Positions 3,900 through 24,267 of a stretch of 24,348 nt of DNA are shown piece after piece. Made by a program: the position numbers and the translations under genes. Position 1 is the first letter of the stretch; each line of letters opens with the position of its first letter. This stretch comes from a virus: IMG/VR virus record IMGVR_UViG_3300025141_000724, positions 1 to 24,348 of that record; one strand, 5' to 3'. The notes below the pieces were generated by a model. The model was not told the origin of the DNA, searched no databases, and saw only the letters and a list, made by a program, of their open reading frames with translations.

Positions 3900-4481
3900 T
3901 TACAACCATTTATGTAATTCTTTTTTTGCAAACTTCTCCGCTTTTTCTTCCCATTTATTGTCATCATGTGGATCTAACCCATCATAATTAGCCATTGTAC
4001 CAGCTTGAGTATATTTCTTTATATATTTTTTAATACCTAATCTCTTAGCATCCAATGCGTGTTTTATTTCATGCAATACAGTCATAAGAAATGCTTTAGC
4101 TGATTTATATGATGGTCTTAAAGCTATTGTATCAGTTTCAGGAATATATTCACCAAATTGTTTACCAGTTCCAATTTTTACTTTAGATTTCAATCCATAT
4201 GACTTTACTAACGCAGTAGCACTTTCATGATAATCAACTCTTTCTAATAAAGGTTTCATCTTCATCATTGCTGGTCTTTTCCAACTTCTATAAGTTTCAT
4301 CATCAGGTTTAACTAATTCCTTACTACCGACCATAATATAACCAGTTGTTTTAGAAACAGATTTTTCTAATGATTTCTTTTTTGAATTCCATTGAGAAGG
4401 TTTAATAAAAGCAGTATATCCTTTGACACCTTTAATATTACCAGTTACACTTCCTTCAAGTATGTCTTTTAATTTAATCAT
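3900..4481 (-). CDS. Leader-bearing zincin-like metallopeptidase, probable injected head protein
   Basis: A 193-residue protein starting MIKLKDILE^G, the shared leader with a predicted prohead-protease site (I-L-E) after Glu9. Residues 115-141 read like a zincin core ending in VLHEIKH, an HExxH motif with His137, Glu138 and His141. Downstream, WEEKAEKFAKKE (177-188) fits the glutamate-bearing helix that supplies the third zinc ligand in many gluzincins and ImmA/IrrE-like peptidases. The protein is Lys-rich, like T4 internal proteins. It is the last cassette gene and overlaps the Nudix gene by 8 nt. I infer a protease packaged in the head and injected to cut a host protein. A structural maturation role, or a catalytically dead homologue, is possible. 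The motif is seen; the role is inferred. Confidence 0.75.
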   Translation of the reverse strand: MIKLKDILEGSVTGNIKGVKGYTAFIKPSQWNSKKKSLEKSVSKTTGYIMVGSKELVKPDDETYRSWKRPAMMKMKPLLERVDYHESATALVKSYGLKSKVKIGTGKQFGEYIPETDTIALRPSYKSAKAFLMTVLHEIKHALDAKRLGIKKYIKKYTQAGTMANYDGLDPHDDNKWEEKAEKFAKKELHKWL

Positions 4482-4875
4482 TTTCTATAGTTTCCTTAAC
4501 CCAATCATCTATTGGCTCTGGTAAACTACCCTTATTAAAATATCCCCAATCAATATGTTCGTGATCTAAATGAGGCACAAATCTTTTTTCACCCTTAAAA
4601 GTATATAAATAAAATGTTCCACCATTATCTTTTTTATATGTTTGTGATAATTCTGGAATACCATTTAATACTATTTGAGTTTCTTCTTTGAATTCTCTAA
4701 TTGCTCCTTCTAATGGTTCTTCACCAATCATCATATGTCCTTTAGGAACATTCCATTTTCCAGAACCAGCACTTAAACACAATAATACTTGATCATCATA
4801 ATGGTATAAAATTCCACCACTATCTTTAGTATCGTTTTCATCTCGTTCAAATATCAAATCTTTTAATTTAATCAT
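4474..4875 (-). CDS. Leader-bearing Nudix hydrolase, probable injected head protein
   Basis: A 133-residue protein with leader MIKLKDLIFE^R (I-F-E site after Glu10). Residues 46-68 form a full Nudix box: Gly46, Glu52, Arg60-Glu61, Glu64-Glu65, matching G-x5-E-x7-RE-x2-EE, with Gln67 in place of the last Gly. The preceding WNVPKGH (41-47) is typical of Nudix enzymes acting on capped or polyphosphorylated nucleotides. The family hydrolyses X-linked nucleoside diphosphates with Mg2+. T4 has a NudE enzyme, but I know of none with a capsid-targeting leader. Possible substrates include signalling dinucleotides, NAD/ADP-ribose or mRNA 5' ends; the sequence does not decide. It overlaps the metallopeptidase gene by 8 nt and follows the upstream gene by 3 nt. 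Confidence 0.88.
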   Translation of the reverse strand: MIKLKDLIFERDENDTKDSGGILYHYDDQVLLCLSAGSGKWNVPKGHMMIGEEPLEGAIREFKEETQIVLNGIPELSQTYKKDNGGTFYLYTFKGEKRFVPHLDHEHIDWGYFNKGSLPEPIDDWVKETIEND

Positions 4876-4878
4876 TTT

Positions 4879-5145
4879 TTATCTTTTATATTTTTTCTGA
4901 TAATCTTTACTTTTTTTCCAATAAATCTTTTGTAACTTTTTAATACCAGCTTCTAAACTATTCATAGCAGTCTTATGTACCCACCAATAATCATCTTCAA
5001 TAGAACGATCTTTTTTAGACCTGTATAAATCAAGTCCTCTTTCAAAAACCCCCAATGAACTTTTTACATTTCGAAGAGTTTTAATAAATTCTTTTGTATC
5101 ACCACCTGCCGCCTCTTTTATAAGTAATTTTTTTAATTTAATCAT
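4879..5145 (-). CDS. Leader-bearing small basic helical protein (internal-protein-like)
   Basis: An 88-residue protein with leader MIKLKKLLIKE^A; here the predicted I-K-E site falls after Glu11 and is followed by Ala, as in T4 IPI-III. The body is lysine-rich and predicted largely helical, with aromatic pairs (YWW) and a strongly basic C terminus (KKSKDYQKKYKR). I recognise no enzyme motif. Size and charge resemble T4 internal proteins, which are packaged with the DNA and injected. Its ATG overlaps the stop of the upstream gene (ATGA). The function is unknown; anti-restriction or other counter-defence roles are known for T4 IPI and remain a guess here. Confidence 0.75.
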   Translation of the reverse strand: MIKLKKLLIKEAAGGDTKEFIKTLRNVKSSLGVFERGLDLYRSKKDRSIEDDYWWVHKTAMNSLEAGIKKLQKIYWKKSKDYQKKYKR

Positions 5146-5474
5146 TTCATTTCTCTCGAACCACTTGTACCTTCACCACGTGCAAGTCTATCTAAATGCA
5201 TTCTTTCTGCTTTAGACATTTTAGACCAATGTTTCTGTACACCTTTTAAACCTTTTTTTGCATTTTTATCTCTTGTCTTTTTCAACATCACAAATATTAT
5301 ATGATGTTTTTCTCTATCACTTAGTTTAGGTGGAATTACCACACCACCTTTTTTTGGGTCACGAGATACAGGTGCTTTTAATTTCTTTTTAAGTGCAGAA
5401 ATCTCACTTTTACTTAAAGGTTTTCCCATCCTTTTAGTCCATTGTTCAAATAATAAATCTTTTAATTTTATCAT
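5142..5474 (-). CDS. Leader-bearing basic protein of 110 residues (internal-protein-like)
   Basis: I start this gene at 5474 rather than at an in-frame ATG 39 nt upstream, because the downstream ATG gives the shared leader MIKLKDLLFE^Q (L-F-E site after Glu10) and overlaps the upstream stop as TAATG. The mature part is very basic, with KKKLKAPVSRDPKKGG around 28-43 and a helical KHWSKMSKAERMHLDRLARG stretch near the C terminus. It has no signal peptide, membrane segment or recognised catalytic motif. A DNA-binding or DNA-packaged role is plausible from charge and leader. It is tightly coupled to both neighbours. Confidence 0.75.
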   Translation of the reverse strand: MIKLKDLLFEQWTKRMGKPLSKSEISALKKKLKAPVSRDPKKGGVVIPPKLSDREKHHIIFVMLKKTRDKNAKKGLKGVQKHWSKMSKAERMHLDRLARGEGTSGSREMK

Positions 5475-5845
5475 TACCAATCCCAACCCATTATAGTTTT
5501 CTTTGTTTTCCAATTGTGTGCTACTTCAGCTGGTGTAAATTTTTTATCTACCTTTGGATTCCAAGTTTTATAATATTCTCTTCTTGGCCAACCTTTTCCA
5601 GCATATTTACTTGAACCGGCTTCCATAGTTTGCCAATCTTTAACTAAATTACCATCTTCAACCCAAGCGTGTTTATATCGTTTTCCTTTAGAAATCCATT
5701 TATTCTGTACCGTTCCATATGCAATTTTCATCTTCTTATTTGCTTGTTTATTATCTTGGTTCATAATTCCCATCTTCCAAGCATAAGAAAGACATTCACC
5801 ACAAGCGATTGTTGCTTCTATAAATAATGATTTTAACTTAATCAT
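5474..5845 (-). CDS. Leader-bearing protein with Cys-His-Asp pattern, possible papain/transglutaminase fold
   Basis: A 123-residue protein with leader MIKLKSLFIE^A. The -3 residue is Phe rather than Ile/Leu, the one leader that departs from strict [I/L]xE, although Glu10-Ala11 is kept. After it come CGECLSYAW (15-23), RYKHAWVEDG (56-65) and VKDW (68-71). A Cys at a helix start, then HxWVE and an Asp on the next strand, is the order of catalytic residues in transglutaminase/papain-like folds; candidates are Cys18 (or Cys15), His59 and Asp70. This would make it a small cysteine peptidase, amidase or transglutaminase-like enzyme delivered with the DNA. The assignment is by motif order only. The gene ends in the TAATG overlap with the next leader gene. 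Confidence 0.6.
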   Translation of the reverse strand: MIKLKSLFIEATIACGECLSYAWKMGIMNQDNKQANKKMKIAYGTVQNKWISKGKRYKHAWVEDGNLVKDWQTMEAGSSKYAGKGWPRREYYKTWNPKVDKKFTPAEVAHNWKTKKTIMGWDW

Positions 5846-5860
5846 TTTATTTTTCGATAA

Positions 5861-6106
5861 TTATTTTGCTCCAAAGACTTTGGAAAAGAAACCTTTTTTC
5901 TTCTTCTTTCCTTTTCCGGCTTTTTCACCTTTCTTTTTCTTCTTCTTTTTCTTCTTCTTCACATCTTCACTATCTGATAGAATTACTTGACAACACTCTT
6001 TAACTTCTGTTGTATTACAAGTCTGAGTTACTGCCTCTTGTCCATTCATAGGAACTACACCAAATAGTATTGCTAAAGAAAGAATATATTTCAATATATT
6101 TTTCAT
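5861..6106 (-). CDS. Exported poly-lysine protein embedded in the leader cassette
   Basis: An 81-residue protein without the MIKLK leader. It begins with a signal peptide (MKN + hydrophobic 5-18) and likely cleavage near NG/Q (22-23). A short Cys-containing segment follows (C30, C38, C39), then ten consecutive lysines (50-59), a GEKAGKGK linker, five more lysines (67-71) and the ending GFFSKVFGAK. The mature protein would be secreted to the periplasm and extremely cationic, with an amphipathic tail. GGAGA-type Shine-Dalgarno lies just before the ATG. The lysine tracts come from mixed AAG/AAA runs. Possible roles are membrane or LPS perturbation, or binding of nucleic acid or peptidoglycan; none is shown by sequence. 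Confidence 0.7.
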   Translation of the reverse strand: MKNILKYILSLAILFGVVPMNGQEAVTQTCNTTEVKECCQVILSDSEDVKKKKKKKKKKGEKAGKGKKKKKGFFSKVFGAK

Positions 6107-6129
6107 ATTATTTCTCCATTTGTTAATTT

Positions 6130-6528
6130 TTATAATCTTTTAACCCAACTCAATACATTAGATAATCTTAAACCGTTAGATACTAAAACTTCTGTTTCTT
6201 CTGAACCTTTAGGGTGTTTTGATTTAATAGCATCTTGTAATGTTTTAATCATCATTTTTTTCACACTAGATGATACTTTCTTTTTCTTCTTTCTACCCCA
6301 ATCATTTACACCATCTGCAGGACCACTACCTACACCCGAAAAAAATGGAGCACCATAATTTGGTTTATCATTCCAATCTATTGTTTGCCATCCACCATAA
6401 TGAGATTTACCATATACAAAAGTCCATGGATCATTACCTGCAGCTGCACTATAATAAGAATCACCGATTTTAATATCAGCGTCTGTCAACTTTTCACCTT
6501 CAGATAATAAATCTTTTAACTTAATCAT
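6130..6528 (-). CDS. Leader-bearing protein, Gly/Trp/Tyr-rich with basic C-terminal half
   Basis: A 132-residue protein with leader MIKLKDLLSE^G (L-S-E site after Glu10). The middle part is rich in Gly, Trp, Tyr and Asp (about 22-78), looking like a small beta domain. A GRKKKKK stretch follows near 78-84, then a helical C terminus. I recognise no family. The two-part build (beta domain plus basic helix) differs from the other cassette members, which supports cargo diversity behind a common leader. Its ATG overlaps the stop of the upstream leader gene by 4 nt (ATGA). Confidence 0.75.
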   Translation of the reverse strand: MIKLKDLLSEGEKLTDADIKIGDSYYSAAAGNDPWTFVYGKSHYGGWQTIDWNDKPNYGAPFFSGVGSGPADGVNDWGRKKKKKVSSSVKKMMIKTLQDAIKSKHPKGSEETEVLVSNGLRLSNVLSWVKRL

Positions 6529-6779
6529 TTTATGTAATCACTATCTTTAATAAAATCAAACCAACCACCATATTCCATACTTACTTTTCTTGCAAGATGA
6601 TCCCAATCTTTCATAGTATTATATAAAACTGAATCATTGGTTTTAGGTTTATGTACTCTTCTAAACAAATCATTCAATTTTTCCATTTGTTTTACAATAT
6701 TATCAGCCATCTTTTCCATCTTCTTAACATCAGATTTTGGAGCTGATTCTTCATTTATTATATCTTTTAATTTTATCAT
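6525..6779 (-). CDS. Leader-bearing small helical protein, first of the cassette
   Basis: An 84-residue protein with leader MIKLKDIINE^E (I-N-E site after Glu10). The body is Lys/Met-rich and predicted helical (VKKMEKMADNIVKQMEKL), followed by an aromatic-containing C terminus (GGWFDFIK). There is no recognised domain. It is the first cassette gene after the cyclic-nucleotide-binding protein, behind a 38-bp AT-rich gap that could hold a promoter. Internal-protein-like by size and leader; function unknown. Confidence 0.72.
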   Translation of the reverse strand: MIKLKDIINEESAPKSDVKKMEKMADNIVKQMEKLNDLFRRVHKPKTNDSVLYNTMKDWDHLARKVSMEYGGWFDFIKDSDYIK

Positions 6780-23823: not shown

Positions 23824-24267
23824 TTATACTCCTTTCTTTTTATTTATAGCTTTCATTAAACCACTATAATCTCTTGTTAATGCAGCTGTAACGTGTTCTG
23901 GAACATCTTTAACAGATTTACCTGCCTTTTGAAGTGTATCTACAGCTACCATATCTCTTTTAACTTCATCTGGTTTTTCATATCCCATCAATTCTGACAT
24001 TCTGGAAGTATCAAAAGTTCCTCCACCTAAAGTCGGATATTCACCAGTTTGTTTTTTTGATGTAGTAAGTCCTACAGTTTCATTTAAAACTTTATTTAAA
24101 CTTCCATTTTTGGTATACTGTATTTCTTCCTTTGGTTCTAAAACTTCTGGGATAATATCAGCTAATTTACTTGAAGATTCCTCTTTAATAAATATCTTTT
24201 GTACTTCTTTTTTCACTTCTTTACGAACTACTTCTGTGATTATTTTCATTAACTGCTTTTTAGTCAT
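23824..24267 (-). CDS. Small coiled-coil protein upstream of gp25
   Basis: A 147-residue protein. The N-terminal 30 residues are a charged helix (MTKKQLMKIITEVVRKEVKK...), likely a coiled coil, and the rest is low in secondary structure with motifs LGGGTFDTSRMSELMGYEKP and DVPEHVTAALTRDYSGLMKAI. I recognise no named family, although proteins of this build sit next to gp25 in marine T4-like phages. Probably a virion or assembly component. Note that it lacks the MIKLK leader. Its Shine-Dalgarno is AAAGGAG just upstream of the ATG. Confidence 0.65.
   Translation of the reverse strand: MTKKQLMKIITEVVRKEVKKEVQKIFIKEESSSKLADIIPEVLEPKEEIQYTKNGSLNKVLNETVGLTTSKKQTGEYPTLGGGTFDTSRMSELMGYEKPDEVKRDMVAVDTLQKAGKSVKDVPEHVTAALTRDYSGLMKAINKKKGV

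Follow-up and report, generated by a model that had tools for sequence, protein, structure and literature searches.

The internal proteins IPI–IPIII of bacteriophage T4 are unrelated small proteins preceded by a leader of ten residues (MKTYQEFIAE / MKTFKEF...TITE), in which positions 4, 7, and 8 are hydrophobic and Glu10 lies just before the cut. Mutagenesis of IPIII assigned residues 4 and 7 to targeting, and residues 8 and 10 to processing (PMC9026906). The same leader spacing, with the letters MK.F..FL.E, is found in enzymes from the virions of T4-like cyanophages (SAM hydrolase, APH/ChoK kinase, and NMNAT/cytidylyltransferase); in the parts of the papers available to us, virion carriage or purification carry-over is suggested for such enzymes and the leader is not mentioned. 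The window described here, which is the whole stretch of 24,348 nucleotides analysed, contains seven genes with a leader of the consensus MIKLKDLLxE. This leader shares with that of T4 the ten-residue length, the hydrophobic positions 4, 7, and 8, the terminal Glu10, and its place in front of unrelated small proteins, but differs in consensus from MKTYQEFIAE, having L4 and L7 in place of the T4-like F4 and F7 of the cyanophage enzymes. Very probably, it is a capsid-targeting propeptide that is cut by an S77 protease and loads cargo into the phage head.

Seven leader genes in the window

The MIKLK start is common to seven ORFs on the minus strand at positions 3900–6779 (genes 1–7; slashes below mark the junction of leader and body), and the set sits between a tail/baseplate block and a primase gene. 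Gene 1 (3900–4481; MIKLKDILE/G, leader at 4455–4481) encodes a zincin-like metallopeptidase as judged from profile matches and an HExxH motif read in the sequence (VLHEIKHALD), and gene 2 (4474–4875; MIKLKDLIFE/R, leader at 4846–4875) encodes a Nudix hydrolase (PF00293, E 7.7e-12). The bodies of gene 3 (4879–5145; MIKLKKLLIKE/A, leader at 5113–5145) and gene 4 (5142–5474; MIKLKDLLFE/Q, leader at 5445–5474) have no family match; the internal ATG at 5474 was used as the start of the latter in place of the upstream TTG of the program-made ORF list. Gene 5 (5474–5845; MIKLKSLFIE/A, leader at 5816–5845) has CGEC and KHxWxxD motifs conserved with its homologues, gene 6 (6130–6528; MIKLKDLLSE/G, leader at 6499–6528) is predicted to encode a folded domain, and gene 7 (6525–6779; MIKLKDIINE/E, leader at 6750–6779) gave no significant family match. 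The set is interrupted by a gene without the leader (5861–6106, minus strand), the product of which starts with MKNILKYILSLAILFG and has a hydrophobic N-terminal stretch and a Lys-rich C-terminus; a homologue of this gene adjoins head genes in the related contig L242.

The seven ORFs lie where the first-pass annotation had placed them, and its description of the leader ends was exact: Glu is at residue 9 in gene 1, at residue 11 in gene 3, and at residue 10 in the other five, and the leader ends in [I/L]xE in six of the seven and in F-I-E in gene 5. The complete divergence that it claimed beyond the leader also held, as the seven bodies, compared all against all by blastp, showed no similarity apart from a single match of 4 residues (E 0.86). 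Five of the seven leaders have the strict T4 spacing (hydrophobic 4, 7, and 8 with E10), and those of genes 1 and 3 are one residue off. A degenerate MIKLK pattern matched the record seven times, always on the coding strand, and the reversed control pattern did not match. Synonymous codons differ within the leader among the seven genes, and neither a common sequence nor a Shine-Dalgarno box was found in the 25 nt upstream of them. A Sec-type signal peptide, which has a long hydrophobic core of 7–15 residues, was considered and rejected; in the leader, no more than two or three hydrophobic residues stand side by side.

Distribution and conservation of the leader

Uncultured phages commonly carry the leader, with at least 120 stretches in IMG/VR, versus only 31 across 84,980 bacterial and archaeal genomes; of these 31, several are internal to longer frames or come from small contigs that have several leaders. 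About 118 leader sites were counted in 50 contigs, versus 4 for a reversed control, with several leader genes per contig and a maximum of 11, a number that, together with the identifiable enzymes among the bodies, sets these phages apart from T4. For scanning the collection, fixed-codon patterns took the place of the degenerate 15-base pattern, which was not stringent enough, and chance was assessed in IMG/VR by comparing a fixed-codon MIKLK 15-mer with the same codons reordered. The motif [LIVMF]xE with Glu at residues 9–11 was found in 33 of 78 open frames versus 8 of 74 in the control, and Glu exactly at residue 10 in 27 of 78 versus 2 of 74. Position counts in the open frames show that residues 6 and 9 are variable and that residues 4, 7, 8, and 10 are kept, which are those mapped in the T4 capsid-targeting sequence. 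The window comes from an uncultured phage of water that is probably a T4-like (far-T4) myovirus; its gp6-type protein is 41–45% identical to those of Flavobacterium phage immuto and Microcystis phage Mel-JY01. A search of open-access full texts for the leader peptide strings returned no paper; the T4 propeptide was found in this literature, and neither a report of a MIKLK leader in uncultured or cyanophage genomes nor proteomics of phage immuto was found.

Linkage to head genes and the capsid protein site

Because the window is a fragment with the capsid and head genes outside it, head comparisons were made in related contigs. A gp23-type capsid gene is present in 14 and an S77 protease gene in 15 of the 50 leader-bearing records, one or both being present in 17 contigs. 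In contigs holding both, the interval from the protease gene to that of the major capsid protein (MCP) contains 12 of the 27 leader genes, versus 4.5 expected (P 0.0004 by random placement; 0.005 by circular shift), a location inside the head operon that is unlike that in T4. The gene order in L235, for example, is portal, protease, leader genes, scaffold, and MCP. Some leaders are found outside head operons. In L234 and L235, moreover, the gene next to the scaffold encodes a conserved head-operon protein with the variant leader MA(T)KLKDLL(T/G)E, and the same protein starts with MAKLKKILEE in L241.

A gp21-like protease and a matching capsid cleavage motif, as predicted in the first-pass annotation, were both found in these relatives. 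All 11 MCPs of related contigs have L[L/I/V]xE between ENQ and VRR, at a site assigned by homology to the T4 gp23 cut (FLTE/A); thus, in the relatives, the leader end and the MCP cut site carry a matching motif. The portal, S77 protease, scaffold, and gp23 of the relatives are homologous to those of T4. The earlier proposal of an independent leader of the same type is supported as to type and probably wrong as to independence, since related phages carry gp20/gp21/gp22/gp23 homologues; the leader appears to belong to the T4-superfamily targeting system, only with another consensus, and not to be a separate invention.

Exchange of leaders at a kept junction

Homologous bodies behind different leaders keep an E/G or E/A junction. 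The body GVYDPGIFK follows MIKLKDILNE, its counterpart GLYDPGIFK follows MIPFILKE in HTVC008M, and the homologue in Melnitz reads MKTFAELQE/GVYDPNIFK. A second pair consists of MIKLK..LITE/ATRW and MKASRLREIIKEEVQNIINE/GTRW.

Leader-bearing proteins in cyanophage virions

A rule derived from T4 picks 6 of the 219 proteins of cyanophage S-CREM2, and five of these six are in the published 52-protein virion proteome (Fisher P=0.003, in a test on six proteins; PMC10665884). They include the SAM hydrolase, kinase, and cytidylyltransferase, which are cytoplasmic-type enzymes. Replication was weaker in a second cyanophage, S-SCSM1, where one of three annotated starts matching the rule (NMNAT) is in the virion; ORF30 (MKTFKQFMSE) is absent from it, though encoded between virion genes, and the match of UvsX is due to chance. 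The virion NMNAT/cytidylyltransferases start with MKSFLQFLKE/A in S-SCSM1 and MRFRQFIIE/A in S-SZBM1 (PMC9602691, PMC9146016). The published virion mass spectrometry identifies proteins by name and not by N-termini, and so bears on presence rather than cleavage.

Bodies behind the leader

The 241 unique leader ORFs fall into 134 mutually unrelated body clusters, mostly sporadic, including Nudix, zincin, zeta/P-loop kinase, ATP-grasp, and nuclease-like families. A few bodies (tail lysozyme with M23, OmpA) resemble proteins of the tail or cell wall and are not obvious head cargo. In the window, gene 1 weakly matches MPTase-PolyVal (PF18818; E 6.5e-4; 20.2 bits against a curated cut-off of 27.5) and the PHROG 'anti-restriction protein' (E 1e-3). 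The former match is a likeness to polyvalent proteins (MPTase-PolyVal zincins and others), which are believed to move along with the DNA of phages or plasmids; these are large and multidomain, whereas the proteins here are single domains, each with its own tag. The gene 2 Nudix hydrolase has leader-bearing homologues in L047, L098, and L099. Gene 5 has three homologues (55–69% identical), all with the leader, and is possibly a papain/transglutaminase-like Cys–His enzyme, a suggestion taken solely from the residue pattern because its predicted structure was poor (mean pLDDT 47) and gave no fold match. Gene 6 has four homologues, also all with the leader, and a fair predicted structure without a fold match (mean pLDDT 74), in which the body is mostly at 70–90 and the leader (residues 1–12) below 50.

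Alternative explanations

The repeated leader could in principle be a DNA- or RNA-level element, such as a translation start or recombination module, that has spread by copying and whose peptide has no role. In its favour, codons match among the leaders of a contig in 383 of 542 cases, versus 281 expected from codon usage, and the six nucleotides just ahead of the ATG are somewhat alike, mostly A-rich. Against it, the upstream sequence is otherwise dissimilar (identity about 0.3); where two leaders have the same residue, the codons differ in about 30% of pairs; residues 4, 7, 8, and 10 are conserved but 6 and 9 are variable; and the [LI]xE/G or A junction is kept behind quite different leaders. 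We regard this explanation as scarcely credible, although recent copying may contribute part of the leader conservation, because codon identity exceeds the expectation. Docking to the tail, baseplate, or another assembly intermediate instead of the head core is highly improbable: the location after the tail/baseplate block and the lysozyme- or OmpA-like bodies would fit it, but against it stand the excess of leader genes between protease and MCP, the capsid-protease motif in which the leader ends, and the cytoplasmic type of the S-CREM2 virion enzymes.

An S77-cut propeptide whose bodies serve head assembly, like T4 gp67/gp68 or IPIII, rather than being injected effectors, is unlikely but deserves more weight. 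The variant-leader protein beside the scaffold and its MAKLKKILEE form are consistent with such a role, and IPIII functions in assembly in T4 (PMC9026906); the sporadic and mutually unrelated bodies, among them the non-structural enzyme families listed above, speak against it.

Proposed role and implications

The first-pass reading of the leader as a capsid-targeting sequence is thus supported by the head-operon context, the MCP site, leader swapping, and the virion proteomics of cultured relatives; for the window phage itself, we infer the packaging, cleavage, injection, and effector role of the seven proteins. During head assembly, the leader would bind the prohead core (a gp22-type scaffold) and bring each unrelated protein into the prohead, where the S77 (gp21-type) protease, in trimming MCP and scaffold after [L/I]-x-E, would likewise cut past the leader Glu. 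The freed body would remain in the head and exit with the DNA into the host cell at infection. The seven genes would then be one of the cargo cassettes of the phage, with a constant address tag behind which bodies are freely exchanged.

This kind of leader is already known from T4; the variant found here has a much wider use than the T4 one. It seems somewhat more probable than not that T4-superfamily phages of natural waters share a general, modular head-loading code, in which several leader classes are swapped in front of an enzyme set that is large and changes, and N-termini alone predict injected proteins; the classes in this reading are MIKLKDLLxE, MKxFxxFLxE, and longer MKxTKSQLKEIIKEEL types. 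To our knowledge, little is known beyond a few models about the material other than DNA that phages inject. A readable address tag would make the injected set of uncultured phages predictable from sequence, and would tie uncharacterised genes to a class of function, namely cargo active ahead of any phage gene expression. It also offers an explanation for the enzymes repeatedly seen in cyanophage virions and sometimes suspected to be contamination, and short leader tags of this kind could serve, in laboratory strains, to pack proteins of choice into phage heads.

Leader genes of the window

On the minus strand at 3900–6779 the window carries seven ORFs that each begin with MIKLK, with one leaderless gene (5861–6106, minus strand) between them, just as the first-pass annotation had described; the MIKLK pattern matches the record seven times, always on the coding strand, and the reversed control gave 0 matches. 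Reading of the ORFs confirmed that the leader (~10 residues; consensus, MIKLKDLLxE) has its Glu at residue 9, 10, or 11, preceded by [I/L]x in six of the seven and present as F-I-E in the seventh. The complete divergence claimed for the remainders of the proteins (bodies) was borne out, as comparison of the seven with each other found no mutual similarity. Synonymous codons differ inside the leader, and the 25-nt upstream segments are unlike one another, with no Shine-Dalgarno box seen. The product of leader gene 1 is a metallopeptidase of zincin-like type (HExxH and a weak match to PF18818 MPTase-PolyVal), and that of leader gene 2 is a Nudix hydrolase (E of 7.7e-12 for PF00293); family searches assigned no family to the other five bodies. 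The interrupting gene product has a hydrophobic N-terminus and runs of 5–10 lysines. Its homologue in the phage contig L242 (10089–10283, reverse-complement coordinates) adjoins the scaffold and capsid genes, and therefore the gene may be a partner of the leader genes.

Occurrence of the leader

Because the record is a 24,348-base IMG/VR fragment, its relatives were examined. As a DNA pattern, the full motif occurs in at least 120 IMG/VR stretches, with up to six leader genes of quite different bodies per locus. So as not to select for the rest of the motif, the exact 15-mer ATGATTAAATTAAAA (MIKLK) was also scanned, with the permuted-codon ATGAAATTAATTAAA as a control, counting open frames of at least 40 residues. 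[LIVMF]xE with Glu at 9–11 was found in 33 of 78 frames versus 8 of 74 in the control, and requiring Glu at exactly position 10 left 27/78 versus 2/74; in the fixed-15-mer frames, positions 7, 8, and 10 are constrained, and 6 and 9 are free. The full motif gave only 31 stretches in a search of 84,980 genomes of bacteria and archaea, several lying within longer frames and several others being small contigs with two or more leader genes, some binned as Flavobacteriales, which are probably phage. The bin labels of four such contigs holding several leader genes (L502, L504, L505, and L507; Flavobacteriales/Flavobacteriaceae) hint at flavobacterial hosts. All loci together comprise 241 unique leader ORFs in 134 unrelated body clusters.

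Cleavage motif and exchange of leaders

T4 gp23 is cut after FLTE. The gp21-type (S77) protease and the capsid and scaffold sites to which the first-pass annotation had pointed have counterparts in some leader contigs: at the gp23-cut position, all 11 of 11 major capsid proteins (MCPs) have L[LIV]xE with A, S, or V as the next residue, bounded by conserved ENQ and VRR motifs, and the scaffold proteins begin (L/I)LKE/A (slash, predicted cut; LKD/A in one pair) and retain [VI][IL]xE near the C-terminus. Since these proteins show a matching motif, these phages' own capsid protease should, judging from sequence, cut at the leader end. In T4 IPIII, mutagenesis assigned targeting chiefly to residues 4 and 7 and processing to 8 and 10 (PMC9026906), and the conserved L4, L7, L/I8, and E10 of the leader fall on these positions.

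Homologous bodies exchange leaders and yet hold the junction, as in the P-loop kinase family (MIKLKDILNE/GVYDPGIFK in contig L013, MIKLKDLLMENIDE/GIRDPGILK in contig L009, MIPFILKE/GLYDPGIFK in Pelagibacter phage HTVC008M, and MKTFAELQE/GVYDPNIFK in Melnitz) and the TRW family (MIKLK..LITE/ATRW, or a second leader type, MKASRLREIIKEEVQNIINE/GTRW), which argues for a propeptide and against start-codon context. Codon identity between leaders within one contig exceeds expectation (383/542 versus 281; body control, 49/98 versus 55.6), suggesting that leaders spread by copying as well. Another N-terminal class, MK(I/L)TKSQLKEIIKEEL and similar, recurs on proteins of these phages that are unrelated to one another (contigs L241, 5045 and 5412; L235, 10355; L234, 2781; immuto gp72, gp80, gp94, and gp95; window, 23824–24267) and stands in place of the MIKLK leader in the TRW family.

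Linkage to head genes

The gp6-like baseplate protein of the window is 45% identical to that of Microcystis phage Mel-JY01 and 41% to that of Flavobacterium phage immuto, both distant T4 relatives. Among 50 leader or baseplate contigs, a gp23-type capsid protein was identified in 14 and an S77 protease in 15. In L235 the portal gene is followed in turn by the protease, the leader genes, the scaffold, and the MCP, and the block from protease to MCP recurs in L236 and L241. In the 11 contigs with both genes, 12 of the 27 leader genes are located between protease and MCP, where 4.5 would be expected (random placement, P of 0.0004; circular shift preserving clustering, P of 0.005). This count leaves out G015, a 369-kb record in which 12 leader sites are scattered and the protease match is weak and split. 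A primase adjoins other leader genes in four contigs (L031, L478, L059, and L074) and in the window; virion enzymes of cyanophage S-SCSM1 are also located beside the primase. S-SCSM1 gp93 (L476, 16626–16835), a virion protein (SKAQQRFMGMVH..STKHKGLP) whose C-terminus, KRTFKEFLEYIE, resembles a C-terminal targeting tail, is homologous to a head-operon protein at L235 7025, L236 10590, L241 2751, and L242 6641 (oriented coordinates).

Virion proteins of cultured cyanophages

In the accessible parts of the proteome literature, virions of T4-like cyanophages are listed with enzymes without structural role, and those parts make no mention of a shared leader on them. A rule fixed from T4 (hydrophobic at 4, 7, and 8; Glu at 10) was applied to all 219 proteins of cyanophage S-CREM2; it was formulated after the N-termini of the virion enzymes had been seen, but its positions derive from T4 and the MIKLK set and owe nothing to S-CREM2. 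It matches six proteins, a small sample, five of which are in the mass-spectrometric virion list of 52 (PMC10665884 Table 3; Fisher P, 0.003), a kind of list that can include lysate carry-over: a SAM hydrolase (MKDFDSFLEE), gp13 (MKDLHSFLTE), an APH kinase with a GTG start (VKRFDAFLTE), gp136 (MQTFSMFFSE), and a cytidylyltransferase (MKNFSSFLTE). The Cas9-like nuclease gp12 of this phage (L469, 7704–10313), reported from virions, carries the targeting motif as LRFASFMAE/A at residues 17–25, about 15 residues further in than the usual leader. Three annotated starts of S-SCSM1 match the rule, namely NMNAT (MKSFLQFLKE/A; virion), MKTFKQFMSE (undetected in the virion), and UvsX; with one virion protein among three, the replication is weak. 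The virion cytidylyltransferase of cyanophage S-SZBM1 starts MRFRQFIIE/A.

Leader bodies and function

Pfam matches are scattered among 140 leader proteins and include Nudix, zeta/AAA_33 kinase, MPTase-PolyVal and SprT-like zincins, RimK ATP-grasp, RNase T-type exonuclease, and NT5C; ART-like bodies (DIVYHFT...) were identified solely by visual inspection. Lysozyme, M23, and OmpA also occur, and for the lysozyme/OmpA group a role as simple head cargo is a poor fit. In contigs L049 and L082 (ORFs of about 569 aa) and L277, nucleotidyltransferase-like domains are joined to ligase-like ones through an LLTE/GG or LLKE/GG junction, as though a single packaged polyprotein were split into two.

The leader most likely works like the T4 capsid-targeting sequence (MKTYQEFIAE), as part of the T4-superfamily system, in which it has a consensus of its own. 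Of the independent leader of T4 type proposed earlier, the type is well supported, with matching conserved positions and cleavage motif, but the independence is probably wrong. The seven leader proteins of the window would be packaged and cut as IPI–III are, and would be injected with the DNA. The rule known from T-even phages is now extended to a broad range of uncultured aquatic phages, for which the leader provides a sequence handle on the proteins they inject.
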